A DNA stretch of 20,803 bases from a virus: positions 1 through 20,803 of IMG/VR virus record IMGVR_UViG_3300047476_000340; one strand, given 5' to 3'. Below are positions 4,892-18,672 of this stretch, one piece after another. The translations under genes were made by a program, and so were the position numbers. The notes beneath the pieces were generated by a model. The model was not told the origin of the DNA, did not search any database, and saw nothing but the letters and a program-made list of their open reading frames with translations. Position 1 is the stretch's first letter. Every line of letters begins with the position of its first letter.

Positions 4892-5443
4892 TTACTTTAC
4901 TACTGTTGGCTTAATTGCTTTTACTGCTGCTCTTGTTGTCTTCACCTTTTGGAGGAGGGCAGCCTGGTTTGATGCTCCAGACTTCTTAGCAGCGTTGTAT
5001 GCCTTTTCTGCAGCCTGAACGCGCTTGATTGCTGCGTTCTGCTGCTTCAAGTAACTTCCCTGAATAGCATTGCTGCTCTTACGATTAGAAGTTCTTGTAG
5101 TAGAAGTTGGGCTTGAGTATGTCATTACTCCACCGCGAGCACGGCCAGTAGCATACTGAGTTGAGGTCGAAGTACCAGTTGGCTTCTTTGGTGTTGGAAT
5201 CTTAACGACTGAACCTGCGCGAGCAGCATCTGCTGTCTTGTAGCGAGCAGGTGCATTTGCACTACGTGCTGAATCTGCAGATGAATACTTTGCAGGATTT
5301 GCTGCTCCAACGCGCTTTGCGCCATACATACGTGTAAGTGCTTCACGCATTTCAGGGTTAGCGTTCTTGGCTCCAGCAAGAGCCTTAGTCATGCCCATCT
5401 TCTTGATTTTATCGATGGTTGCTTGCGATACTTTGATTGCCAT
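4892..5443 (-). CDS. Basic Ala/Lys-rich virion-associated protein with YxSADxAR motifs
   Basis: This 183-residue basic protein is made of low-complexity Ala, Lys, Ser and Thr. Residues about 5-47 (VSQATIDKIKKMGMTKAL ... RMYGAKR) match the adjacent 124-residue protein, so the two share a duplicated module. Two copies of a Y-x-[ST]-A-D-x-A-R motif follow at residues about 53-60 (YSSADSAR) and 68-75 (YKTADAAR). The C-terminal half is a Lys/Ala-rich helical region (LKQQNAAIKRVQAAEKAYNA) likely to be coiled-coil. The start lies two bases after the previous stop (TAATCATG) with only a weak ribosome-binding site, so translation is probably coupled. Function is unknown; a DNA-binding or virion-interior role is inference from composition. 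Confidence 0.75.
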   Translation of the reverse strand: MAIKVSQATIDKIKKMGMTKALAGAKNANPEMREALTRMYGAKRVGAANPAKYSSADSARSANAPARYKTADAARAGSVVKIPTPKKPTGTSTSTQYATGRARGGVMTYSSPTSTTRTSNRKSSNAIQGSYLKQQNAAIKRVQAAEKAYNAAKKSGASNQAALLQKVKTTRAAVKAIKPTVVK

Positions 5444-5445
5444 GA

Positions 5446-5820
5446 TTAGTAACCGCGACGTGCCTTGTCTGCACCAGAAATCTTGTAGTTAGGCGCCTTC
5501 TTCTTTGGTGTAGCAGTAGCCTTGTTACGAGCACCCTCTGGGCCATAGACCTTCTTCTTAGCCGCTTCCTGAGCCTTGACTGAGGATGTAACTGCAGCAG
5601 CAGCGCGCTTTGTACCGTACATACGGGCAACGCCTGTCTTGTATGCAGCAGATGCTCCGCCTGCAGACTTCTTGAGAGCAGCAGTCATGCCGTCCTTCTT
5701 AATCTGGTTGATGACAGCCTGTGATACTACTGTCTTCTTTGTTGCTACATCGCCTGTGCGACGTGCTGATGGCACTGCCTTCTTAGCGGTAACTTTTCCG
5801 CCTGTTACTGGTTGACGCAT
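5446..5820 (-). CDS. Basic Ala/Lys-rich small protein, paralogous to the next gene
   Basis: This 124-residue protein is rich in Lys, Arg and Ala. Residues about 32-76 (VSQAVINQIKKDGMTAAL ... ARMYGTKRAAAA) align with the start of the 183-residue protein downstream. The C-terminus, YKISGADKARRGY, resembles the YxSADxAR motif of that protein and of the 435-residue virion protein. The start at 5820 has a good AAAGGAAC site five bases upstream and follows a 56-base gap that carries a possible promoter. The highly basic composition and position among structural genes suggest a nucleic-acid- or capsid-interior-associated protein. No enzymatic motif is visible. Confidence 0.75.
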   Translation of the reverse strand: MRQPVTGGKVTAKKAVPSARRTGDVATKKTVVSQAVINQIKKDGMTAALKKSAGGASAAYKTGVARMYGTKRAAAAVTSSVKAQEAAKKKVYGPEGARNKATATPKKKAPNYKISGADKARRGY

Positions 5821-5844
5821 TTTATGTTCCTTTTCGTAGTTTAA

Positions 5845-5873
5845 TTTATAAGCAATGATTTATGGTTGAGCAA
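5845..5873 (-). promoter_or_regulatory. Possible internal promoter in the 5821-5876 gap
   Basis: On the minus strand, TTGCTC (5873-5868) is followed after 17 bases by TATAAA (5850-5845), then an AT-rich stretch and the ribosome-binding site of the 124-residue gene. The -10 matches the sigma-70 consensus at five of six positions; the -35 is weak at three of six. The -35 overlaps a small hairpin, TGGTTgctcAACCA (5876-5863), with a 5-bp stem and 4-base loop that follows the preceding stop codon. This is one of few AT-rich gaps in the window. The element is a candidate only. Confidence 0.3.
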
Positions 5874-5876
5874 CCA

Positions 5877-6161
5877 CTACCATTTAACTTTGTCCGCCCA
5901 ATATGCGGCACTCATTTTTCCCTTTGAGATGTTGCTTGCATGACGCGCCTTAAATGACTTACGACGTGCTGCATATGATGCAGACTCTCCCGCTTTTTTA
6001 GGTGAGCCTGATACGCCCTGTTGACCAAAGCGAATAGTTTTTACTTGGGTTCCAACCTTTGCTACAACTACGTGTGATTTGGTTGGATGGCTTGGTGTAC
6101 GCTTAGGCTTGTTATAGCCAGATACACCAGCGCGCTTGAGACGTGAATCTGTTTGTTTCAT
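5877..6161 (-). CDS. Small basic conserved phage protein (KARH...YWADKVKW family)
   Basis: This 94-residue basic protein starts MKQTDSRLKRAGVSGYNKPK and contains a KTIRFGQQGV segment, a SYAARRKSFKARHASNI segment and the C-terminal SAAYWADKVKW. The pattern IRFG ... RR-x-SFKARH ... K...YW...W recurs in small proteins of many aquatic phages, where the cognate is often near capsid genes. The Arg/His-rich centre and terminal Tyr-Trp are the conserved parts. No function is established that I know of. It overlaps the upstream 131-residue gene by four bases (ATGA), indicating coupled translation. A structural or nucleic-acid-binding role is inference. Confidence 0.8.
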   Translation of the reverse strand: MKQTDSRLKRAGVSGYNKPKRTPSHPTKSHVVVAKVGTQVKTIRFGQQGVSGSPKKAGESASYAARRKSFKARHASNISKGKMSAAYWADKVKW

Positions 6162-6553
6162 CTGAACTTTGCCGTCTTCTTTGCAATAGATTTTGGTTGC
6201 TTTACAAATTGCTTACCCTTGGCTGCACCAGCCCGCTTTGCAGCGGTGGTTTTAGCGTACTCAGAGGCCGATAGAGCCGCTCTAGCCTTCTTAGGTAGGT
6301 AACGCTCACCAGTAGCCTTTGGACCCTGTGTACTAGGCTTTCCTGACTTAGTTCCCCAGTATTCCTTAGTCCACTTAGAAAGTGACGACTGAGCCTTTGT
6401 CTTGCTACCTGAGTAACCACCACCAGCCTTCTTATAGGCTTGTGCCAGCAACTGCGCCTTACGCGCAGACCACTGACCTGGGTTGCCACCTTTAGAACCA
6501 GACATAATCTGATTCTTTAGGCGCTCCCTAAGCGCTGATTTGGTGTAAGCCAT
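6158..6553 (-). CDS. Small basic protein resembling DUF5872
   Basis: This 131-residue lysine-rich protein begins MAYTKSALRERLKNQIM. It contains SGSKGGNPGQWSARKAQLLA (about 18-37), then SLSKWTKEYWGTKSGKPS (about 57-74), GERYLPKKARAAL (about 82-94), and a C-terminal KGKQFVKQPKSIAKKTAKFR. The W-T-K-E-x-W-G-T-K-S-G-K and G-E-R-Y-L-P motifs match, from memory, a family (I believe Pfam DUF5872) found in phages and also in phycodnaviruses and other giant viruses of eukaryotes. The function is unknown. The start abuts the previous stop (TAA directly followed by ATG). Family recognition is fairly confident, though the accession is recalled and not checked. Confidence 0.8.
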   Translation of the reverse strand: MAYTKSALRERLKNQIMSGSKGGNPGQWSARKAQLLAQAYKKAGGGYSGSKTKAQSSLSKWTKEYWGTKSGKPSTQGPKATGERYLPKKARAALSASEYAKTTAAKRAGAAKGKQFVKQPKSIAKKTAKFR

Positions 6554-6829
6554 TTACTTCTTCTTGTTCATCTCTGCGAGTACCTTCTTGAGGTATGCGT
6601 CATACTGCTTGCTGTTCATAGCACCAGTGCCACCCTTGTTGGCATTTTCAATCTCGCGCTGCTTCTTTCTGCGCAATGCAACATCTGGGTCCATAAACTT
6701 AAGACCAGGCTTTGGTGTTGGCTTTGTACCCATGTTTGTCAACTTACCAATAGAGCCGCTATTCTTCTTTGGAAGAACCTTTACATTTGGCTTCTTTGTT
6801 GACTTTGGCTTTGGCATATTTGTGGCCAT
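6554..6829 (-). CDS. Small Lys/Pro-rich hypothetical protein
   Basis: This 91-residue protein has a Lys/Pro-rich, probably disordered first half (MPKPKSTKKPNVKVLPKK, then TKPTPKPGLKF) and a helical second half with DVALRRKKQREIENA and SKQYDAYLKKVLAEMNKKK. It starts within a TAATG overlap with the 53-residue gene and ends directly against the next start. I do not recognise a family. It belongs to the run of small basic proteins between the capsid gene and the neck gene. A role in DNA compaction or inside the capsid is possible but not shown by any motif. Confidence 0.7.
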   Translation of the reverse strand: MATNMPKPKSTKKPNVKVLPKKNSGSIGKLTNMGTKPTPKPGLKFMDPDVALRRKKQREIENANKGGTGAMNSKQYDAYLKKVLAEMNKKK

Positions 6830-6990
6830 TACATCTTCACCATTTTACGAGCAATCTTCTTTGCTCCACCCTTCTTCATAGGCTTTGTCTTAATCTTGCC
6901 GTACTCCATCATGCGCTCTGCGCGTCCCTCAGACTTCTCATGCTTACGCTTTGCTGCTGGAGACTTATACTTCTCACTCTTAACTGACAT
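6829..6990 (-). CDS. Very basic 53-residue protein
   Basis: ATG at 6990 overlaps the stop of the upstream H/H/C/C-protein gene, and the TAA at 6831-6829 overlaps the next start, so the frame is bounded on both sides by TAATG junctions. The product starts MSVKSEKYKSPAAKRKHEKS and has 15 Lys and 4 Arg in 53 residues, with K-x-K and KK pairs throughout and few hydrophobic residues. That composition suits binding to nucleic acid or another polyanion. It has no recognised domain. The tight fit between its neighbours makes it a credible gene despite its small size. Confidence 0.7.
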   Translation of the reverse strand: MSVKSEKYKSPAAKRKHEKSEGRAERMMEYGKIKTKPMKKGGAKKIARKMVKM

Positions 6991-7307
6991 TAGACCAACC
7001 CCACTTCTTTTAGTTTGCTTGCTGTTTGCTTAGTTATCTTCTTTGCGCTAACACCTGCAGTATCTGCGCTGTATGGAGTTCCCATTGCTTCGCTTGCAGC
7101 AGTTGCTTCTCTGATTGCCTTCATTGAAGTTCCAGCAGGCTGTATGCCCTGTGCTCTGGCATGTTCATAGGCTTTTAGTTCATTGTCCCAAGCCTTATTG
7201 CTAACGTTCTTAGTTGACTTGGCATCTCCTGGGCTAAGTTGTAGCCCCATAATCTTGCATCCAAAGCAACCATCTACATCCTCTGGATGTGTCTCCCTAT
7301 GCTTCAT
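6990..7307 (-). CDS. Small protein with N-terminal H/H/C/C putative metal site
   Basis: This 105-residue protein begins MKHRETHPEDVDGCFGCKIM. His3, His7, Cys14 and Cys17 form an H-x3-H-x6-C-x2-C arrangement that could bind zinc. The next part, LQLSPGDAK, then AWDNELKAYEHARAQGIQP, resembles a small family I recall from actinobacterial phages. The C-terminus is Lys/Ala-rich (SAKKITKQTASKLKEVGLV). It starts inside an ATGA overlap with the 84-residue gene and ends in a TAATG overlap. Metal binding is inferred from the spacing of His and Cys; the biological role is unknown, and the gene's placement just after the capsid gene suggests a virion or assembly function. Confidence 0.75.
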   Translation of the reverse strand: MKHRETHPEDVDGCFGCKIMGLQLSPGDAKSTKNVSNKAWDNELKAYEHARAQGIQPAGTSMKAIREATAASEAMGTPYSADTAGVSAKKITKQTASKLKEVGLV

Positions 7308-7558
7308 TCCACCGTCCTTACTGTGTACCCTGCTGCCTCTAGGTCAGCCTTTTCCGCAGCATCCACCTCATAGGTGATGCCACCAAGGTAGAACTTGTCA
7401 GATGCCTTTACCTCGTCTTCTGAGGCATATCGGACCTCGAAGTACTCTCCGTCCATCTTTAGCACTGAAACGCCCTTAACGAGCCTGTAGCGGCTGAATA
7501 GACGCCCTTCTGCGAGGGGTCCTTCACTCACTGTTGGAGTTTCAAATAGGTAGGTCAT
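7304..7558 (-). CDS. Small beta-rich hypothetical protein after the capsid gene
   Basis: This is an 84-residue protein starting MTYLFETPTVSEGP. A start 18 codons further upstream is open (7612), but the ATG at 7558 has a GAAAGGG site about 7 bases upstream and the extra residues would run back through the hairpin, so 7558 is preferred. Alternating strands (RLFSRYRLVKGVSVLKM, GEYFEVRYASE, KFYLGGITYEVD) suggest a small beta fold, ending AAGYTVRTVE. It resembles short proteins found after capsid genes in other actinobacterial-type phages. It could be a capsid-decoration or head-completion protein; that is inference. Confidence 0.7.
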   Translation of the reverse strand: MTYLFETPTVSEGPLAEGRLFSRYRLVKGVSVLKMDGEYFEVRYASEDEVKASDKFYLGGITYEVDAAEKADLEAAGYTVRTVE

Positions 7559-7588
7559 AGTTGCCCTTTCAAGTAACCTTACTGATGA

Positions 7589-7608
7589 GGCCAGAGTTAC
7601 CCCTGGCC
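7589..7608 (-). terminator. Hairpin after the capsid gene (attenuator or mRNA-end candidate)
   Basis: On the minus strand GGCCAG is followed by an 8-base loop and CTGGCC, 13 bases after the capsid stop codon. The stem is a perfect 6 bp, extendable by a G-T pair. No U-run follows, so it is not a standard intrinsic terminator; it may stabilise the 3' end of capsid mRNA or attenuate read-through. The fold was found by eye and no energy was computed. Confidence 0.4.
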
Positions 7609-7620
7609 CCACCCGTCAAA

Positions 7621-8613
7621 TTACTTTGTAGATGTAATCTTAATAAGTGACTGTGGACGGTAGAGTCCCCAGTTGAGGATACCGTGCCAGCCGACTGGAC
7701 GGAAACGGTTCAACTTGTCTGAGATGTTACCAAATTCAATCTTTGGCTCCTTCCAGACAGCCTCAGCAAGTGCCTGAGCGCCAAGAACATATGAGTTATA
7801 TGTTGTAACGCCAGATGTTGTTGAAGTTGTAACGTTTGGTGTCTCAATGAAACGAACACCTTCCCATGAACCAAGTTCGCCAGCAAGAAGTGCTGATGCA
7901 TCCTGGTAGTCATGTGGTGTACGCCATGTGTTTGCACCTGTCTCAGTACGCAACTGGTGTGAAACTTCTGGGTGGATGTAAGCAACATAGAATGCGCCGA
8001 AACGCTCCATTACGCCCTTTGAGCGGAACTTTGTTGTTGCTTCGCGGATTGCCTCACCTGACATGCCTGAGTTAGCAGCAGTTGAGCCTGTTCCACCGTT
8101 GATGTTTACGCCATCGTAGCGTCCCTGAACAGCCTTAACACCAGATGTAACTGTGTTAGCAAGGAGGTTGGCAGTTGTATCGAGAACAGCGCGAACACCG
8201 TTGTCGAGTGTCTTTGCCATGTTGAATGCGACTGCGTTAGCAATCCATGGGTCAACATCAGCAAGAGACATAAGTCCCAACTTACGTGTAGGGATTACAA
8301 CGCGACCAAACTCATCTTCCTCAACGTTGACGTAAGATGTTGCTGGCATTGCAACTGCATCTGGGTCAACAGCCTCTGAGAGACGTGCTGATGCGATGTC
8401 AGTTTCTGCAATATCGTTGTGGAACTGGAAGCGAACAGATGAGCCATTGTGTGTAAGGCTTCCTGGCTTCTTGTCAACGATTGCACGGAATTGTGGCTGA
8501 AGACGAAGATTCTTCTCGACGAGTTTGTCGTATGCCATTGTAACAAGGTTGGTTGCCAAATAATTTGGCGCACCGTCGACGCCTAAACCGGCGCCTGTGA
8601 AAATATCTGCCAT
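7621..8613 (-). CDS. Major capsid protein, N4-gp56 family type
   Basis: This 330-residue protein shows the pattern of N4-gp56-like major capsid proteins. The N-terminus has YLATNLVTMAYDKLVEKN; about 55-75 a SSVRFQFHND strand; about 97-115 VNVEEDEFGRVVIPTRKLGL (the extended arm region); then FGAFYVAYIHPEVSHQLR, a YQDASALLAGELGSWEGVRFIETP segment, and the C-terminal LNWGLYRPQSLIKI. Capsomers of this HK97-fold family form the icosahedral shell. It follows a scaffold-like gene in the classic order, with AAAGGA about 10 bases before the start. No long N-terminal delta-domain is visible in the protein, so any scaffolding seems to be supplied by the separate upstream gene. Identity is confident. Confidence 0.9.
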   Translation of the reverse strand: MADIFTGAGLGVDGAPNYLATNLVTMAYDKLVEKNLRLQPQFRAIVDKKPGSLTHNGSSVRFQFHNDIAETDIASARLSEAVDPDAVAMPATSYVNVEEDEFGRVVIPTRKLGLMSLADVDPWIANAVAFNMAKTLDNGVRAVLDTTANLLANTVTSGVKAVQGRYDGVNINGGTGSTAANSGMSGEAIREATTKFRSKGVMERFGAFYVAYIHPEVSHQLRTETGANTWRTPHDYQDASALLAGELGSWEGVRFIETPNVTTSTTSGVTTYNSYVLGAQALAEAVWKEPKIEFGNISDKLNRFRPVGWHGILNWGLYRPQSLIKITSTK

Positions 8614-8649
8614 GAGGCTGATATCCTTTCGTTAGAAGTTAAATGCGGA

Positions 8650-9135
8650 TTACTCACCGCGAATCATGGATAAGAAATCTTCGACAGAACCATCATGTTG
8701 CGCCATACGCGCCATCAAGTCATCTGCCGAAGCGGGTGAACCAGCACCTTCTAATGTTCTATCCATCTGACGAAGAGCATTTACATCTGAAGCATCAATC
8801 TGTTGCTTTTGTTCTAACTGAAGACCAAAGTCTTCTGCATTGTTAGAAAGCCATCCTTCGATTGCTTCTTCTGTTGGCTCAATGTCTGCTGGAATATACT
8901 TAGCGATACTCTGGCGTACACCCTTGGATGTCAAAACATCCTTAATTGCCCGTTCCTTCTGGCTCTTACTTAGTTCAGTAAGTTTTGATTCTGCTTCCAA
9001 TCGAGCCTTCTTCTCAGCCTTTAGTTGCTTTCGGAATTGCTTAATCAGTTCTGAATCGTTCATCTGTGAATAGTCGACCTGTACATCGTCGTCTTCATCT
9101 TCATCTGTCCAGAAGTTATCTCGGTTAGTGCTCAT
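8650..9135 (-). CDS. Scaffold-like capsid assembly protein
   Basis: This 161-residue protein is acidic at its N-terminus (DNFWTDEDEDDDVQVDYSQ). Residues about 28-62 form a heptad-like charged helix (SELIKQFRKQLKAEKKARLE and on), probably a coiled coil. The middle has KYIPADIEPTEEAIEGWLS, and the C-terminus is DDLMARMAQHDGSVEDFLSMIRGE. Size, charge, predicted helical character and position immediately before the capsid gene are those of phage scaffolding proteins, which nucleate and shape the procapsid and then leave or are degraded. The start has GGGAG nine bases upstream. The scaffold role is inferred from composition and place, as these proteins share little sequence. Confidence 0.8.
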   Translation of the reverse strand: MSTNRDNFWTDEDEDDDVQVDYSQMNDSELIKQFRKQLKAEKKARLEAESKLTELSKSQKERAIKDVLTSKGVRQSIAKYIPADIEPTEEAIEGWLSNNAEDFGLQLEQKQQIDASDVNALRQMDRTLEGAGSPASADDLMARMAQHDGSVEDFLSMIRGE

Positions 9136-9176
9136 GCACTTATCTCCCTTTTCTTGTTAGTTGGTTTCATACGCCT

Positions 9177-9200
9177 CAGTAACATCGGGGTGTGTTACTG
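9177..9200 (-). promoter_or_regulatory. Perfect 8-bp hairpin in the leader of the scaffold-capsid genes
   Basis: CAGTAACA and TGTTACTG flank an 8-base loop in the only sizeable gap (9136-9257) between large genes. No U-run follows, so intrinsic termination is unlikely; a processing or stabilising structure for the scaffold-capsid transcript, or a protein-binding operator, fits better. Two -10-like TATAAG and TATGAA elements lie nearby without convincing -35 partners. Nothing else is seen in this 122-base gap. Confidence 0.45.
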
Positions 9201-9257
9201 GCTCGTACTATCGGTCTTATACGCTGGATGGGGCCGACAGGTCCACCAGGATTCTAA

Positions 9258-10571
9258 TTAGAAGGACTGTCCCAATCCACCGCCAGAGTTAAGTCCATAT
9301 TGACTTACTCCTGACTGTCCTTGGAACGCTGCTTCTTCTTGCGCCTTAAGTCGCTTGCGACGCTCTGATTCCATCTTCATGAAGGATTCTTGTTCAAGTT
9401 CTGACTGGATAGTTGCTTTGTTAGCACTTGTCTCAGCAGACTTGTCATAGATACCAGCAAGTTTGACTGTTGGGTTCAGAGTTTCACTGACTGTCTGATA
9501 GGCAGTTGCTGCTAGTTGCTGAGCACCTTCTGGGCCGTAACCCTGTGCAATAAGTCCTGCAGCGAGTTTCTCTGTATTAGCCTTGTTGAAGGTAATACCA
9601 GAACCTGCACGGCGAACTGCTTCTGCAGCAATGCCAACAACTGCGGCATTCTGTGTGAGTGCTTCCTTGCCAATCTTAGGATTGAGGAAGAAATCTGTAA
9701 GTTGAGTAGCATCTGTGATGTACCCTGCCTTCTTAGCAGCCTCAATGTATGCTGGGTCTGCCTCAATTGAACGAAGACGAGCAAGGTTTGCACGTGCATC
9801 TAGGTCATCAACTGTTACGTTGTTCTTGGTGTATTCCTGCAGTGATTCCTTGCTCATGTACAATGCATTAAGGTTGTACTTAGTTACAACGCTCTTAGCG
9901 CCTTCTACGAAGTTGTAGAGTTCTGTGGCTGACTTAGGAGATGTAGCAGACTCATTGAGGTAGCCATATGCATCATAGAATGGGGAAGTTACCTTTGTTC
10001 CATCCTTGAGCGTGTACTCTTTGTTGTTAAGGTAAATCTCAACAGCGTTATCTACGTCACCATCTAGGTCATTGACCAACTTTGTGAGGAATGCTGTAGA
10101 TGACTCAATAATTGATGAGTTGTAGCCACGACCCTTAAGGGCTGCCTTCATAACTGCTACGTTAGTAGCGCTGTCAGCGCCTGCATTTGGGTCCTTGTAG
10201 TCTGGGTTAGCCACTGGTGTTCCATAGTAGAAGCCACCCTTGCCATCTGCAATCTTCTCACGGCGCATCTTTCCATCGCCAATGAGTTCAAATCCAGCAG
10301 ATGTACCAGCAGGTGTAAATGTTGTTGTGCCAGTTCCAGCACCGCCTGGTGTAGAACCACCAGTTTGTGTTGGGACAGGTGCTGGTGCTAGACCAAGAGC
10401 AGCGCGTTCTGCTGCTGTCAATGTCTGACCACCAGTGAGTTTTCTCAAAGCATCAGTGGTATTCACGGCAGGAGTAGCAGGAGCAGAATTAGTAACACGT
10501 GCTTTGTTTACTGCTGCATTAGCAGCCTTATTCTCGGCAGCCGTCATTCCTTCTTCTGGTGCTATTGCCAT
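9258..10571 (-). CDS. Helical virion protein, putative internal/ejection component
   Basis: This 437-residue protein has an Ala/Thr/Pro/Gly-rich, probably disordered first 100 residues (including TTDALRKLTGGQTLTAAERA), a mid-region of helices (about 140-300, with AVMKAALKGRGYNSS, LTKLVNDLDGDVDNAVEIYL, and LDARANLARLRSIEADPAYI), and a long helical C-terminus with ELEQESFMKMESERRKRLKAQ followed by a Gly/Ser/Gln-rich tail. The start overlaps the previous stop (TAATG). No catalytic motif or transmembrane segment is evident. Its company, a giant protein and a similarly sized helical protein, recalls the podovirus internal proteins that form the ejection channel. That role is inference; virion location is likely. 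Confidence 0.65.
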   Translation of the reverse strand: MAIAPEEGMTAAENKAANAAVNKARVTNSAPATPAVNTTDALRKLTGGQTLTAAERAALGLAPAPVPTQTGGSTPGGAGTGTTTFTPAGTSAGFELIGDGKMRREKIADGKGGFYYGTPVANPDYKDPNAGADSATNVAVMKAALKGRGYNSSIIESSTAFLTKLVNDLDGDVDNAVEIYLNNKEYTLKDGTKVTSPFYDAYGYLNESATSPKSATELYNFVEGAKSVVTKYNLNALYMSKESLQEYTKNNVTVDDLDARANLARLRSIEADPAYIEAAKKAGYITDATQLTDFFLNPKIGKEALTQNAAVVGIAAEAVRRAGSGITFNKANTEKLAAGLIAQGYGPEGAQQLAATAYQTVSETLNPTVKLAGIYDKSAETSANKATIQSELEQESFMKMESERRKRLKAQEEAAFQGQSGVSQYGLNSGGGLGQSF

Positions 10572-11878
10572 TATTTCAACCTATCCATAAGTGCCTGAGC
10601 AATGTTAATTGCTTCATTTTTCGCTTTAGCAGTCTTTCCGTAGCGTGGGTCTGCCTGCATAGCCTTCTGTATTTCGTAGTCGTTCATAAGACGGTATGAC
10701 TTATCAGGAGCCTGATAGTTAAGTGCCATCTTCAAAAATGAGTCATCTGCAGTTACTGGTGTCTCAAAGAACTGGGATGCTGCGTTGATGAGTGGCTCTA
10801 CATACTTGTTAGCATCTTCGCCAGCGCGTACATAATCAGCAATACCCATATACTTAGTCGCAGCAACTTCACGAATCTCAGCCTTCTTCTTGTCAAGAAT
10901 TGTCTTCGCTGTGTTTGCATCAGCGCTACCAATAACCTGCTGTAGGATAGGAGCAACTGTCTTCATATCTGGAGGAGTCTGATAGTTGTTCTTGTATGTA
11001 GCAGCGATATCATCGTAGATAGTCTTTGCTGCTCCACCAATCTGCTCTGGTGTTCCCAAGTCTGGGAACTGTCCTGAGAGGTATGTAGCCAAGAACTGTG
11101 ACTGTTCATCCTGGGTAAAGCCTTCACCAGGAGTCATGCTCTTAGTGTCGTTAGTAGCCTCATACTGGAGGATTCCCTCAGCATCACGCAACTGCTTACC
11201 TGTCTTAGGGTCAATAACCTTCTTGAAGGTAGTCTTAGTTGTAGTCGTAGTAGACTTAGTTTGACGCTGTAACTCAGCGTTGAATGCGTTACCAAACTTC
11301 TCGATAACTTCCTTTGTAGGATACATACCGTAAGCCTGGAAGTAGGCGTCATTTAGAGCCTGCTTAGAATCGCTGAAATCCTTCATCTGCAGAGCAGTTG
11401 AGATTTGCTTGTTGTACTTAGGTGTAGTATCAGGTTGCTTCTTAGCAGTGCCACCGCCAATACCACCAAGTTGTGATACTGTTTGGAGCCATGCAAGTGG
11501 GTCAGAACCGTTCTTGATGGCATCCTGTAGAGCCTTATCAAGGCCAGATGTATCTGCTGAATCATAGGTTCCTACTGGAACCTTACCCTTAGAGTATCCT
11601 GTAGAGCGTAGCAACTCCTGAACATATGTGCTCATAGAGCCTTTGCCAGTAGGCGAAGGAGTGTTGCTCCAGTTACCCATGATTGAAGCAAAGTACTTGC
11701 TCTTAAGAACTGGGTCCTGTGTCTGTACGAACTTGATATAGTTCTGTACGCCAGGGTTCTCAAGGCTTGACCATGGGTTAACTGGTGCTGCATATGCAGG
11801 ACTAGAAACAGGCGCAAATGAAGTAGCGGTGTTAGCCGCTCTCGCTGCATCAGCAGATGTGTATCGTGGTGTAGTCAT
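10571..11878 (-). CDS. Helical virion protein with N-terminal YTSADAAR motif
   Basis: This 435-residue protein starts MTTPRYTSADAARAAN. An alternative start eight codons earlier (11902) would lie inside the giant gene; the chosen ATG has GGAAGG about 6 bases upstream and begins right after the giant's stop codon. The first 55 residues are Ala/Pro-rich. The C-terminal half is helical, with TQDEQSQFLATYLSGQFPDL, DYVRAGEDANKYVEPLINAA, NDYEIQKAMQADPRYGKTAK and a last helix INIAQALMDRLK. The YxSADxAR motif at residues 6-13 recurs in the 183-residue protein. It sits between the giant and the 437-residue protein and probably works with them as an internal virion set. I do not recognise a named domain. 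Confidence 0.7.
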   Translation of the reverse strand: MTTPRYTSADAARAANTATSFAPVSSPAYAAPVNPWSSLENPGVQNYIKFVQTQDPVLKSKYFASIMGNWSNTPSPTGKGSMSTYVQELLRSTGYSKGKVPVGTYDSADTSGLDKALQDAIKNGSDPLAWLQTVSQLGGIGGGTAKKQPDTTPKYNKQISTALQMKDFSDSKQALNDAYFQAYGMYPTKEVIEKFGNAFNAELQRQTKSTTTTTKTTFKKVIDPKTGKQLRDAEGILQYEATNDTKSMTPGEGFTQDEQSQFLATYLSGQFPDLGTPEQIGGAAKTIYDDIAATYKNNYQTPPDMKTVAPILQQVIGSADANTAKTILDKKKAEIREVAATKYMGIADYVRAGEDANKYVEPLINAASQFFETPVTADDSFLKMALNYQAPDKSYRLMNDYEIQKAMQADPRYGKTAKAKNEAINIAQALMDRLK

Positions 11879-11879
11879 T

Positions 11880-14800
11880 TTAACCTTCCAACTGACTTGC
11901 AAATACTCCGTAGTACATACGTGAGAATGCAGGATTCTGTGCCATTAATGTTTCAGCAAGTGTGATAAGTTCATCTCTTGCCATAGTTGCGTATCCATTT
12001 GAGCCCTTAAGTGAGGCATAGTTAGATACGCCAATCTCGTTAAGGACACCCTGGAACTCAGTGAACTTCTCAAAGAACTGTGCTGTCTCTTCGTACACTG
12101 GTGATTGCTTGAGCGCTGGGTCTTGTAGTGCTTCCCCAATACGACCAATCTTCTCTGTACCAATGTTAGTTGTAATGAAGTCAGCAGGACGACCACCGAA
12201 GTTCTTATCGAGTTCGGCAATCTTTGACTGATACCAGAAGTCTGAGTATCCGCCAGCAATCTGCTCTTCTTCAATCTGGTCCTTGAGCATGGCATAAATC
12301 ATGCCTTCTGCCTCATTAGCCAACTCATTAGTGCTTAGAGCACGACGAGCACCAGTCTTTCTCTGCCAGTTGTTGTACTTCAATGAGAAGTTACCACCTG
12401 GAAAGAAGTAAGGAACTACGTCACCTGGGTTACGAGCAAACTTATCTGCAGCGCCAGGATTGTTGTTAAGGAAGTTCCAAGCATCGTCTGTACCACGTAC
12501 AGCAGATGTTGTGCCACCAAGAGCAATCATGAGGTTATTAGCACCAAACTGCTCTGCAAACTGCATAACAGACTTGCCGTAATCACCAGGGTTAGACTTA
12601 GAAATCTTATCCCATGCATCATAGAGCATTGTCATTGTCATGAACTGGACCTTGTTCTTTGGGTCCTTAATCTTCGCTACAACCTCATCTGATGGAGTTG
12701 CAGGAGAAATGCTCTGGAAGAATGCTGTAAGCAAACCTACTGACTTAGACATAGCACGTGCATCGTTGAATAGACGTGTACGTTCTGCATCGTTAGCAAA
12801 TGGGTTATCTCCATACTTGCCAGTAGATGCCAACTGTGCAGCCCAATCCTTGACACCACGCTCTACTGAGGCGGTATCTGCTGTGCCAAATGCAACCATC
12901 TTATTAAGCCAAGATGGAAACACGATGTCTCCAAGTTTCGTTGGCTGTCCAAAAGGTGTAACGATGTCACGAAGTACTTCGTATACAGGGCCAAACTTGG
13001 CATTAGAGCCAGTAACAGCAAACATAGCCTGTCCAGCAGGACCGATACCAGGAACCAGTGGGTTCACCTGACCAAATGCAAGGTTAAGTGACTGCACTGG
13101 CGCTGTAATCTGCATAGCAGATGCAGCATCGATATTCTTACCCGCAAGAGCACCAATCAAGTTACCAACAAGTGGCATCTTGAAGCGCTCTTCACCAGTT
13201 GCCTGGTCACGGTAGATAAATCCCTGGTTGTCATCATATGCCATACCAGCAACGTCATAGACTACGTTACTGCCCTCTTGTGTGGCAGCGCTGTAAGCCT
13301 TACCGAACTTGTATGCTGGTAGTGGGTTGCCCCAGAATAACTTATTCCATGTGGAAACTGTGTTAGCCTGTGCCTGTGCGAATGGTGCAACCAAACGCCA
13401 TGCATTAGCCCACTGACGCTGCTTTGCAGCATCGTAGAACAAGTCCTTGGTGTACTTAGAAGCCTCACGTGCAGACATCTGGTGGATAGTTTGCCACTTA
13501 GTTGTGGAGCCAGCACCGTACTCTGGGTTCTTAAGACGCTTCTTAAGTTCAGTTTCAATTACACGAAGTGTCGCATGCTTGCGACCTACAGTAATAACAC
13601 GTCCATTGACCTGCTTGCTGATTGGAGCAAGGTTCTGCTGAGCAGTACGCTGTACATACTTGAGGTCTTCTGTTGAAAGCATGCGAGCATACTTACCAAC
13701 ATGGTCCCAATAAGCCATTGTGTACTCAGGTCCAAAGTTCATCTTAGACTCAAGACGTGTTGCAAACTCAAAGAACTTATCTACAGCCTGTGTGATGGCC
13801 TTTGTGCCACCAACACCGCTTGTTACTTCACGTGCTGTAAGCACGCGTGAGTTAACTAGGTCTTCTGGCTTGAATACGTTCTTAAGTTGCGCTTCAAACT
13901 TCTTCTCAAGTGCTACAAGTTCGCGTGATGTCTTAGGGCCATCAAGCCATGGTGTAGAAATTGTGACAAGTTTGCCTGAGTCATCAGTAAATGATGCACG
14001 GCCATTGGCAATAATGTCAAGAACAACGTGTGAACGTGGACCTGTACCTGCTACAGAGCGAATCTGTGAGGCAAGTGTGTGCTCCTGTGCTTCATCAAAG
14101 AAGAATGTGTACACCTTATTGGCGTCAATGTTATCAGCAGCACCAGATAGTTCTGGGTTCTTGAGGAAAATCTGCTTGATAGATGGGTTCTTCTCAAAAG
14201 CACCAGTGACGTACTCACGAATAATGTTATCTGGCTTATCGTAGTTCTTGATAAGTCCATCTACAAATGCACGCTTTGTTGGTTCGTCTGCATTGTTGAT
14301 GACCAACTTAGCAATATCTGGGTTAAGTCTATCGCTAGCAAAGCGGTTCAGTGTAAATGCAAGACCCTTAAAGTAGTCGTCGCTCTCTGGACCAGTTACT
14401 CGGTAGTACTTAAAGATTTCAGAGTTCTTGTTAATGCGGTAGTCAGATACTGACTCAGAACGATGGTAGAAAGTCTGCGCTTCACGCCATGCCTCAAGGA
14501 ACTCACCCTCTGCCTCGTCTGACTTGAATGCAGTACCTGTGAGGTCTGTCTGATAGCGAGCAGAGCGAGCAGCCAACTTCTGTACAGCGTTACCGTTAGG
14601 GTTAGCCATTACCATTGCAGTAAACTGTAGTGGGTGGCTAAGAACGTTAGCGTGACCAGAGAGGAACTGACGCATCTGCATTTCTGCAATGTTACGTAGG
14701 ACATAAGAGACACGGAATACCAACTGTGCTGTACGCCATACATCGCCTGCTTCTTCTGCAAGAACCTTGGCAGCCTTAGCACCGTGGATAATCTTGTTCT

Positions 14801-17651
14801 TCTCAAAGTTCATGATTGTTCGTGCTACTTCTTTAGTATCTGGAAGATACACAAAGTTGTTAAGCAACTGGAACTCATGCATAGCACTAGGAAGAGGAAC
14901 AGACTCTGTGCCATTGAATATAACTGCAGGCACAGTATCTTCTGCAATGTGGTTTACAGAGTATGAAGTCTTAATGTTCTTATCTGTGTTACTTAAGCGG
15001 ACAGAATCCTTAAGTGTCTTGAGGTCATCTCCATCAAGGCCAAGACGCTTGCCAATCAACTCGTTGAGTTGAACTGTCATGCCTTCTACGATTGCAGCAC
15101 GTTCCTGATTGCTTCCAGCATTAAATAGAGCACGTGATGTGTCCTGAATCAGTTTCTCCTGTGCGCCCTTGCCAATAGAAGCCTTTACGCCAGTAGAAGA
15201 AATCCAGTTTTCAACGCCATTGACAAGACCAGTGGTATCGCCAAGGTTGAGAGCAGTAGAACGTACAAAGAATCGGTTGTAACTACGCTCAAGTGTCTCT
15301 GCCATCTTAAATGGCACAAGGCTTACTGGGTCAACAAGGCGACCTAGTGGGTTAGCAGTTAACTTACCAGCCTGAGCACGTAGTGACATAGAGCGGAAGA
15401 TGTTAGGGTCTGTATTCTCAGCACCAAGGTGTGTGAGGAATGCCTTAAAGACGTCATCAGCACTCTTTGCATCTGTAAGATTCTTGACCATATCTGCATC
15501 AAGTTTCTTGCCAAAATAGTTGTGAATCTTGTAGGCATCTGTCTCGTCAGCGATAACCTTTGCAATCTCCTGGAAGTTACGTCCAAGAAGATACTGCAAT
15601 GGCTTGCTAAAGTCTGTACCTAGTTCGCCAGCGTATTCTTCTGTCAAACCTACCTGATGACGGAGATACTCAATTACTGTATCTTCCTTGTTCACCTTAA
15701 GGTTGAGGAACTTGTCTAGTCCTACGCTATCTGGGTCGTTGAGAACCTTCTGTAGCAATTCTGGGTCATTGTCGACAAGTTCACGCCAGAGCGATACTTC
15801 CTTAGTTGTCTGGTCATAATCCTTGAGTGTCTGCTCTGCGCGAGCAGCAGCAGCACGTGTACGCTCCAACTTGACAGTTGGCTCTTCAAGTGAGCCCAAG
15901 AACTTGAGCATATTAGGGCCAAGGTTAGTTGGGTCTGCAACCTCTGCAGCGGCCATAGCAACCTGTGCTGGGCGAGCACTAATCTTGTCAACGCCCTTGT
16001 TCACAATGCTAAATCCACCTGTTTCGCCGTAGATAGCGCGAACATTCGCAAAGCCATCTACCTTCCAGATTTCGTTAATCATGTCGTTGAGCACTGACAT
16101 TGCTTCTGGGTTCTTGAATTGTGATGCCTTGGCAATAAGTTCTGCCATAGGAACCATAGAATCTTCTACGTAGCCCTTGAACATGAAACCGTCGAATGAC
16201 TTACCTTCATCTGAAAGACCACGGTATAGGTCATCCATAGCCTGACGTGTAGCAGGAGACTGTGTGAAATCTGCAGCAGTCTCTTCAATACGTGCCATTA
16301 GGCTAGCGCGCTTTGCAATCTCTGCATCGCGTACATTCTTAGGAGCATCAGCAAAGTCATCTGCTAAGTCGTATAGTTTGAACTTGTAGTTTTCTTTTCC
16401 AGTAACTACGAACTCATCTAACTTATGTACACCAACTGAAATCTTTCCAGCCTCTGGAATCTCGTCAAAGAGGAACCATCCGTCAAAGAATCCACCTGTG
16501 TTAGTAAAGTCTGCAGAGAGTTTATCAACTGCAGATGTCATCTCACCAGATGCCACCTTTGGGTGTGTTACAAACCAGTTAGCAACGTTTGCTGGGTCTA
16601 GTGTAGCATTATCTACGCCAGCACCGAAGTAGACCTGCTCTTCTGTGGCAAGAAGTTTCTTAGCATTACGTGCTTCTGCACGGACAATGTGAGCATTCTG
16701 CTCTTGCGCTTCAAGAACCTTCTTGTTGTAGCGGTTAGCAGTACGCTTGCGTACAGCAGGAGAGAGCAAATCTGACTCTTCTGCAAGTTTAGTAACCTCA
16801 TCGATAATCTCTGAGTTTGGCTTAAAGCCACCAGCACGGACAGCATCCTTCATCTTTGTGAACTGCTTGCCCTTGCCAAGTACCTTTGTGGCAGCACCAG
16901 GACCGAGGTATGTTGTTGGGTCGAGAGCGATGTTAAGTGTCGCGTCTACAAGACCTGACATAATCTTATAAGCAGTTGTATCTGGTCCTTGACCAAGAGA
17001 CTTTGCTGTGTAACGGCCAATTGTAAATGATTCGCCGTAAATCTTACCGTAAGCACCCATGGCCTTAGCCTGTGCTTTACCTACCTTGGTCTCAGGTGTA
17101 ATGAAGAATCCTGAACCCTGGTTAGACCAGTTACGTACAAGTTGTCCAAGTTGAGTAGACTCACCAGCAATACCTTGTGTAAAGTCCTTGATGAGTTGCT
17201 GTGTTGGTACACCCTGTGTAAGGTCACGTGTCATGACTGTTGCAAAGTCATAGATAGAACGAAGGCCAGCAAAGCCTACGCGAGATACACCCTTGAATGG
17301 GTCCCATACAACGTTCTTGACTGCATCAGAAATCTCGCCAATAAAGCCACGCTTCTTCTCAACAGTTGCCTTAATGTTATCAACGTTGCGAGCATCACGC
17401 TTTAACTGTGCAATACCATCATAAGATGTAATCTTGTCGATTCCAGGCGTGCTTGAGTTGAGCCCAGAATTGACCATCGCCATAACCAAGTCCTTACTCA
17501 TACCTGGATACTTAAGCGAAATGTCGTTAAAGTTAGTTAACTTATCAGGAGTAAGATTGCTGTACGCAATTTGTACATTGCGTTTCATCGCATCCCGATT
17601 GTTCTGCTGCAGAAGTTTTTGCGCAGGAGTTAAGTATTGGTTTTCTGCCAC
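11880..17651 (-). CDS. Giant virion protein, putative ejected internal protein
   Basis: This 1923-residue protein takes up over a quarter of the window. The start codon is GTG (17651), overlapping the previous stop as TAGTG, with GAAGAGGG six bases upstream. It is mostly helical. The N-terminal 300 residues include WDPFKGVSRVGFAGLRSIYDF and LDPTTYLGPGAATKVL. Near residue 970 is a WRTAQLVFRVSYVLRNIAEMQMR segment (quoted part: RVSYVLRNIAEMQMR). Around residue 1415 is WRLVAPFAQAQANTVSTW, followed by GFIYRDQATGEERFKMP, VNPLVPGIGP and PSWLNKM. This PFA...TW / PG-x-GP / PSW order recurs, from memory, in very large virion proteins of aquatic podovirus-like phages. No lytic or protease motif is certain. 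Ejection into the host with the DNA is the favoured role, by inference; tape-measure function is less likely. Confidence 0.7.
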   Translation of the reverse strand: MAENQYLTPAQKLLQQNNRDAMKRNVQIAYSNLTPDKLTNFNDISLKYPGMSKDLVMAMVNSGLNSSTPGIDKITSYDGIAQLKRDARNVDNIKATVEKKRGFIGEISDAVKNVVWDPFKGVSRVGFAGLRSIYDFATVMTRDLTQGVPTQQLIKDFTQGIAGESTQLGQLVRNWSNQGSGFFITPETKVGKAQAKAMGAYGKIYGESFTIGRYTAKSLGQGPDTTAYKIMSGLVDATLNIALDPTTYLGPGAATKVLGKGKQFTKMKDAVRAGGFKPNSEIIDEVTKLAEESDLLSPAVRKRTANRYNKKVLEAQEQNAHIVRAEARNAKKLLATEEQVYFGAGVDNATLDPANVANWFVTHPKVASGEMTSAVDKLSADFTNTGGFFDGWFLFDEIPEAGKISVGVHKLDEFVVTGKENYKFKLYDLADDFADAPKNVRDAEIAKRASLMARIEETAADFTQSPATRQAMDDLYRGLSDEGKSFDGFMFKGYVEDSMVPMAELIAKASQFKNPEAMSVLNDMINEIWKVDGFANVRAIYGETGGFSIVNKGVDKISARPAQVAMAAAEVADPTNLGPNMLKFLGSLEEPTVKLERTRAAAARAEQTLKDYDQTTKEVSLWRELVDNDPELLQKVLNDPDSVGLDKFLNLKVNKEDTVIEYLRHQVGLTEEYAGELGTDFSKPLQYLLGRNFQEIAKVIADETDAYKIHNYFGKKLDADMVKNLTDAKSADDVFKAFLTHLGAENTDPNIFRSMSLRAQAGKLTANPLGRLVDPVSLVPFKMAETLERSYNRFFVRSTALNLGDTTGLVNGVENWISSTGVKASIGKGAQEKLIQDTSRALFNAGSNQERAAIVEGMTVQLNELIGKRLGLDGDDLKTLKDSVRLSNTDKNIKTSYSVNHIAEDTVPAVIFNGTESVPLPSAMHEFQLLNNFVYLPDTKEVARTIMNFEKNKIIHGAKAAKVLAEEAGDVWRTAQLVFRVSYVLRNIAEMQMRQFLSGHANVLSHPLQFTAMVMANPNGNAVQKLAARSARYQTDLTGTAFKSDEAEGEFLEAWREAQTFYHRSESVSDYRINKNSEIFKYYRVTGPESDDYFKGLAFTLNRFASDRLNPDIAKLVINNADEPTKRAFVDGLIKNYDKPDNIIREYVTGAFEKNPSIKQIFLKNPELSGAADNIDANKVYTFFFDEAQEHTLASQIRSVAGTGPRSHVVLDIIANGRASFTDDSGKLVTISTPWLDGPKTSRELVALEKKFEAQLKNVFKPEDLVNSRVLTAREVTSGVGGTKAITQAVDKFFEFATRLESKMNFGPEYTMAYWDHVGKYARMLSTEDLKYVQRTAQQNLAPISKQVNGRVITVGRKHATLRVIETELKKRLKNPEYGAGSTTKWQTIHQMSAREASKYTKDLFYDAAKQRQWANAWRLVAPFAQAQANTVSTWNKLFWGNPLPAYKFGKAYSAATQEGSNVVYDVAGMAYDDNQGFIYRDQATGEERFKMPLVGNLIGALAGKNIDAASAMQITAPVQSLNLAFGQVNPLVPGIGPAGQAMFAVTGSNAKFGPVYEVLRDIVTPFGQPTKLGDIVFPSWLNKMVAFGTADTASVERGVKDWAAQLASTGKYGDNPFANDAERTRLFNDARAMSKSVGLLTAFFQSISPATPSDEVVAKIKDPKNKVQFMTMTMLYDAWDKISKSNPGDYGKSVMQFAEQFGANNLMIALGGTTSAVRGTDDAWNFLNNNPGAADKFARNPGDVVPYFFPGGNFSLKYNNWQRKTGARRALSTNELANEAEGMIYAMLKDQIEEEQIAGGYSDFWYQSKIAELDKNFGGRPADFITTNIGTEKIGRIGEALQDPALKQSPVYEETAQFFEKFTEFQGVLNEIGVSNYASLKGSNGYATMARDELITLAETLMAQNPAFSRMYYGVFASQLEG

Positions 17652-18084: not shown

Positions 18085-18672
18085 CTAGTTAGTAAACTGT
18101 GTTTCAATAACAATCGGTGGTGCGCAATATGCGTTCCACTGGCAAGCAACCTCAATTGATTTCTTGATAATTGCCTTAGCCTTCTTTGGGTCATCTTTGC
18201 ACTTATCAATACCAAGTGCTACTGCCGCACCTAGTGCGATTGGCCCACCGCTTCCAGCGGTATAGATATTACGAATATCTCTATCCCATCCATAATCGGA
18301 TGCAATAGGATATATAATTCCTTGAACTGATACAAGAAAGCCTGAATCCATCCATGCTGCTTCGCCTTCCCACTTAGCATCGTATCCACCTTCAATGAAG
18401 TGGTCACGAAGTTGTGGGATAAACAACTGAGTCATGAACTGGTCTAACTTCTCGACAGTCGTAAATCCTGGCGGTTGAGGTGGTATCCATCCTTGCTGTA
18501 GCAAGTTACCACCACGTGTAGCACCGCAGATTGCGAAGAGGTAATCCTCTTCTTCATCCCATGTTACTTTGGGATTTGCAAGAACAAACATATCGCCAGA
18601 TTCCTCTGTCGCACGTGAGTCCGCACCAATAATGGAGAAACCATTACCTTGGAATCCAACTAATACAGTCAT
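18085..18672 (-). CDS. Proteasome/HslV-type Ntn-hydrolase protease, candidate prohead protease
   Basis: This 195-residue protein reads MTVLVGFQGNGFSIIGADSR at its start. After loss of the initiator Met it exposes Thr1. Asp17 lies in GADSRAT, and Lys34 (NPKV) takes the place of the family Lys33, so the Thr-Asp-Lys set of the proteasome/HslV (MEROPS T1) fold is present. ICGATRGG matches the HslV GFAGGTAD region, and AGSGGPIALGAAVALG (Ser140, mature numbering) matches the HslV GSGGPYAQAAARAL region. The C-terminus IEVACQWNAYCAPPIVIET fits the closing helix and strand. Length is close to HslV (about 175). No propeptide is visible. It lies between portal and other head genes, where tailed phages usually keep the maturation protease; no HslU- or Mpa-like ATPase is seen here. 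Protease fold is confident; the prohead role is inference. Confidence 0.85.
   Translation of the reverse strand: MTVLVGFQGNGFSIIGADSRATEESGDMFVLANPKVTWDEEEDYLFAICGATRGGNLLQQGWIPPQPPGFTTVEKLDQFMTQLFIPQLRDHFIEGGYDAKWEGEAAWMDSGFLVSVQGIIYPIASDYGWDRDIRNIYTAGSGGPIALGAAVALGIDKCKDDPKKAKAIIKKSIEVACQWNAYCAPPIVIETQFTN

Follow-up and report, generated by a model that had tools for sequence, protein, structure and literature searches.

The window analysed here is the whole 20,803-base stretch of the IMG/VR virus record IMGVR_UViG_3300047476_000340. Read from its right end, its genes encode a portal, an Ntn (proteasome-like) protein, a 141-residue protein, a giant protein of 1923 residues, proteins of 435 and 437 residues (families A and B), a scaffold-like protein of 161 residues, the capsid protein, a run of small genes and the tail proteins. 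The small-gene run to the left of the capsid gene includes five basic proteins with an isoelectric point (pI) of 10.4-11.2. A short peptide, hereafter called the tag, recurs in this window in two unrelated proteins: the 435-residue protein, a putative ejection protein of family A (10571-11878, minus strand), and a very basic 183-residue protein (4892-5443, minus strand; pI 11.0) belonging to a third family, R. The 437-residue family B protein (9258-10571, minus strand) is untagged in the window.

Three copies of the tag are encoded on the minus strand: YTSADAAR (11840-11863; residues 6-13 of the 435-residue protein), YSSADSAR (5264-5287; residues 53-60 of the 183-residue protein) and YKTADAAR (5219-5242; residues 68-75 of the same protein). 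They are the only three matches to the strict pattern Y.[ST]AD.AR in the 19 window proteins, whereas 2000 shuffles that preserved composition averaged 0.001. Three matches were likewise found for the looser core [ST][AP]D.AR, a number reached in none of the shuffles (mean 0.04). A sequence-only reading of the window had described five such peptides as one motif common to four virion proteins. All five were found again at their places in the window translations, and the motif stands in the 435- and 183-residue proteins, far above the rate in shuffled Ala-rich sequences. It could not be upheld in the other two. YKISGADKAR, residues 112-121 of a 124-residue paralogue of the 183-residue protein (family R; 5446-5820, minus strand; 51% identity over 45 amino acids), had a single occurrence beyond the window, in a practically identical contig (L013). 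In the 105-residue protein, YSADTA (residues 79-84) lies in a column that reads FDANT or YDANT in nearly all relatives and YSADT or FSADT in near relatives only. Both were rejected as tag copies.

Relatives were collected from 2.9 million virus contigs and the motif was counted over 17,432 open reading frames; the counts take in related sequences and do not represent independent events. The tag could be refined to [ST][AP]D.AR, usually with YK or AK in front, the full form being (Y/A)-K-(S/T)-(A/P)-D-x-A-R. Family R comprises small basic proteins (median pI 10.9) with the common domain "KVSQATIDKIKxMGM..RMYG"; the core is carried by 54 of its 116 distinct proteins, with 99 matches, at one to three copies per protein that are mostly internal and sometimes N-terminal. 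Sixteen family A proteins are tagged, and in all 16 the S or T falls at residue 4-10. Position is therefore conserved in A but not in R. In family B, one protein (L089) opens with two tag copies, and the other three matches are a single internal ITADPAR in related proteins that resembles a chance occurrence. Three small basic proteins encoded at the gene position of the window's 91-residue protein are also tagged. No match to [ST][AP]D.AR was found in the portal, capsid, scaffold and 1923-residue giant protein or in seven further families. The family sets of the relatives hold 15-62 core matches, compared with about 0.05 per shuffled set, and on this ground, together with the absence from other families, chance in Ala-rich sequence was rejected. 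A degenerate-pattern scan of the whole virus collection for YK[ST]ADxARA gave 30 stretches, mostly from the tag families of this lineage, and is an undercount since the Arg codons AGA and AGG lie outside the pattern. The sequence-only reading had named absence from close relatives as evidence against the motif; it is instead kept in their A and R proteins and in one B protein.

The earlier claim that the copies differ in codons and match at the protein level was borne out. Between families, 24 of 51 codon pairs are identical among synonymous choices, against 21.0 expected from codon usage, and within the family of the 183-residue protein the figures are 58 of 120 and 50.3. Since codon matching is no higher than codon usage predicts, the peptide is the conserved unit, and gene conversion among the copies at the DNA level is unsupported. 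In pairwise alignments of R linkers, the tag columns, which were chosen by the motif, are 77% identical compared with 43% elsewhere. The resulting profile is [YA]-[KR]-[ST]-[AP]-D-[AES]-A-R-A-A-A, in which the search pattern itself fixed D, A and R but left the choice of A or P and of A or E open. N-capped helices typically begin in this way, with S or T and then A/P, D and A/E. AlphaFold predicts a short helix at the tag in both carriers (residues 56-62 of the 183-residue and 10-14 of the 435-residue protein), within stretches where the predicted local distance difference test (pLDDT) score is below 50. Residues 1-32 of the 435-residue protein form such a predicted disordered N-terminus, and in the 183-residue protein a folded RMYG domain is followed by the disordered linker that holds the tags.

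The carriers themselves are probably located in the virion. The C-terminal part of family A aligns by hhalign with the C-termini of Immanuel3 gp11 (probability 96, E 3.8e-9) and gp12 (probability 94, E 1.3e-7); at their N-termini these two proteins have an NlpC/P60 peptidase and an SLT transglycosylase. The homologous C-termini and differing N-termini suggest that the N-terminus of A is a variable slot, occupied by a cell-wall enzyme or by a short tag. No Pfam enzymatic domain was found in the window's 435- and 437-residue proteins, and tblastn of the former against isolated phages gave no match. A LysM-like sequence, seen by eye, opens the A protein of one relative (L235) and the B protein of another (L253). 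PHROGs and Pfam searches with R proteins returned nothing useful, no convincing PDB structure match was obtained for A or R (best Z 6.1 and 7.6), and none of 27 pattern matches to bacterial R homologues in the genome collection was confirmed.

The tag is not the only peptide common to these proteins. After removal of the R domain, R proteins and A N-termini have 37 six-letter words in common, against 3.8 expected (maximum 7 in 50 shuffles), and nearly all of the excess comes from [ST][AP]D.AR and a second peptide, [KR]YVGSMFVPD. The latter opens A in four genomes as MAG[KR]YVGSMF (G021, L054, L055, L083) and occurs as [KR]YVGSMF[VI]xD in R linkers of eight others (G020, G027, L059, L077, L081, L123, L128, L136), in up to two copies per protein. 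The corresponding test of R against B is not significant (39 words, 24.8 expected, shuffle maximum 39), so that GTPFGQA and other peptides apparently common to R proteins and B N-termini are leads by inspection only. Such candidates are GTPFGQA (G030, L244, L250), NFTYG (L028, L030, L241, L248, L252) and a MMxDGG-like sequence (L088, L042, L115, L186, L063). A charge-altered relative of the tag, [ST][AP][RK]xAER, is repeated in R linkers of L095, L097, L098, L107, L212 and L221 and is also present in small proteins encoded at another position in L065 and L082.

The window capsid has about 42% identity with capsids of Streptomyces phages (Beephvirinae), of which the member Abafar has podovirus morphology (PMC11536984). 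The portal, capsid, scaffold and further head families have counterparts in E7 and F5, two cultured Planktophila phages (PMC10202952). WhiB is encoded in most of the longer records of the lineage, and a search of nine tag-bearing records detected it in seven. The E7 and F5 head-gene matches and WhiB place the lineage in a group of freshwater actinophages, and the host of the window probably belongs to the same order as that of E7 and F5. The 94-residue basic protein of the window (5877-6161), which has no Pfam family, is strongly conserved, with 64-79% identity to roseophage and cyanophage proteins, far beyond this lineage.

Comparison of E7 and F5 bears on where a partner of the tag may lie. 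Their DNA is about 96-98% identical on both sides of an 8-kb region with the giant, A-position and B genes (8727-16928 in E7, record L186; about 8551-16222 in F5, record L185), which were annotated as hypothetical proteins by the authors (PMC10202952). On sequence comparison, this island is a giant/A/B cassette of putative ejection genes and a natural swap between phages of one host strain. The window's giant protein (11880-17651, minus strand) is a member of the same cassette and lacks the tag. The same R protein with MAKSADAARAAAM is present in E7 and F5, whereas the cassettes of both are untagged. As the two phages have the tagged R and the head genes in common and differ in their cassettes, the partner of the tag more probably belongs to the common core than to the cassette. 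In these two phages the R gene has changed place and lies between the terminase and portal genes, just upstream of the latter; in most other loci it follows the gene of the 94-residue protein.

We consider, with a probability of roughly one half, that the tag serves for docking or encapsidation by binding a conserved component of the head, similarly to the capsid targeting sequence (CTS) of T4. In this proposal, [YA][KR][ST][AP]D[AES]AR would be a short linear motif for docking, placed in disordered linkers or N-terminal tails, that probably folds on binding into a short N-capped helix, with S/T as the N-cap, A/P in the first turn and then D and A/E. It would fasten unrelated internal proteins (the 435-residue and sometimes the 437-residue putative ejection proteins, and the basic RMYG-domain proteins) to one conserved part of the head, with scaffold, major capsid protein and portal as examples of candidate receptors. 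The docked carriers would be taken up during head assembly, so that binding would drive encapsidation. The sharing of the tag by non-homologous families and its absence from other structural families argue for such a function, as do its fixed N-terminal place in A, the one to three copies in R, the conservation at the peptide level and the short helix in predicted disorder. The second peptide, [KR]YVGSMFVPD, which moves between the same families, and the precedents in T4 and P1 point in the same direction. The capsid-targeting or docking role put forward in the first reading is thus supported by retention in relatives, confinement to the 435-residue, 437-residue and small basic families and predicted disorder; the full reading is supported only in part.

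The internal proteins of T4 have little in common except an N-terminal CTS (PMC3012670). The actinophage tag is likewise a short peptide on diverse proteins, at the extreme N-terminus in A and B, and T4 directs such proteins into the precursor head; the proposed likeness is functional, by analogy and not by a sequence match, and we do not claim membership of the class. As in T4, one peptide is found on several unrelated proteins (A, B and R), presumably internal ones. However, in the small basic proteins of the actinophages the tag also occurs internally and more than once, and it is found in genomes with no detected prohead protease. In P1, DarB has an N-terminal capsid targeting signal; truncations locate it at residues 6-10, and 30 residues are enough to carry a reporter into the capsid (PMC9024508). 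The near-N-terminal place is that of the tag in A, but P1 has one large protein where the actinophages have several unrelated families with one motif. Finally, the ejection proteins of T7- and P22-like podoviruses exchange N-terminal modules, among them peptidoglycan hydrolases (PMC8954989), as suggested here by the NlpC/P60 and SLT domains of the A homologues in Immanuel3. The swapped actinophage units are only about 8-12 residues long and also occur in small basic proteins, and the parallel implies no homology of A or B to the T7 and P22 proteins.

Several observations weigh against a docking tag. The tag is not obligatory, being missing from about half of the R proteins and from most A proteins. 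Coupling between the tag in A and the tag in R of the same genome is not clear, and no gene restricted to tag-bearing genomes, as a candidate receptor could be, was found among 14 genomes. The R copies are mostly internal, unlike known N-terminal targeting sequences, and the virion location of the carriers is deduced from gene position and homology.

The main rival, which we regard as clearly less probable, is that the tag is an internal contact element that binds the RMYG domain or other tagged proteins, or aids DNA condensation; R proteins would then assemble with one another around the packaged DNA and keep A and B in place. This would suit the strong basicity of R, the presence of one to three tags beside a folded domain and the tagged small basic proteins at the position of the 91-residue gene. 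However, the tag carries almost no net charge, R is tagged in E7 and F5 although A and B are not, and in the structural model the tag is not packed with confidence against the RMYG domain.

Less probable still is the absence of any common function, with low-complexity modules being shuffled between virion genes, or helix starts converging in Ala-rich tails. R proteins are visibly mosaic and hold several other recurring peptides, as this would predict. The excess over shuffled sets argues against it, as do the D, A and R that recur (fixed by the search pattern) despite diverged codons and the lack of the tag in other proteins of the same genomes.

We judge it improbable that the tag is a proteolytic processing signal used at maturation, when an enzyme of phage or host origin would shorten the N-termini and cleave the basic proteins. 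The targeting sequences of T4 are removed by the prohead protease, and a candidate enzyme is available in the window, the 195-residue Ntn protein (18085-18672, minus strand), for which the sequence-only reading had suggested the motif as a cleavage site. Its gene lies between those of the portal and the 141-residue protein in the window, in E7 (7500-8033 of L186), in F5 and in some relatives (G008, G038, L036), thus in only part of the lineage, and a protein search found it in 9 of 47 records. However, a profile built from these matches and the E7 and F5 homologues detected no Ntn protein in five tag-bearing records (G003, G016, G018, G027, G040), and G008 has the Ntn gene with no detected tag. 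The five records may be incomplete, but their lengths of 37.6-42.6 kb are close to the roughly 39 kb of the isolates. Cleavage by the Ntn protein is therefore unlikely and was rejected as a general explanation of the tag. No S78 or Clp-type (ClpP-like) prohead protease was found in nine tag-bearing records, where controls worked, while the search for S77 proteases (the T4 gp21 family) had no positive control; the protease could also be one of the host. A 2021 survey of such proteasome-like proteins found its AAH class in no Actinobacteria-specific phage (PMC8665760).

Least probable of all is a role following ejection, in which the tag, belonging to the variable N-terminal slot of A and B, would help at the cell wall or within the host: the NlpC/P60 or SLT domains in that slot of the Streptomyces phage homologues and the LysM-like openings seen by eye would fit, but the one to three copies in linkers of small basic proteins would be left unexplained.

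How phages choose the internal proteins that they load is known in detail for very few systems, and the tag offers a compact candidate for such a loading signal, in a group of phages found widely in freshwater metagenomes. If it acts as in T4, it would help to explain how whole ejection cassettes are swapped between near-identical phages, and it could be attached to proteins to load them into actinophage heads. More tentatively, it may belong to a small code of interchangeable docking peptides ([ST][AP]D.AR, [KR]YVGSMFVPD and possibly GTPFGQA, NFTYG, MMxDGG and SPRxAER) that are exchanged between ejection-protein N-termini and the small basic proteins of the head. Such a code, if true, would let unrelated cargo plug into a conserved head receptor while the cargo genes are swapped wholesale.

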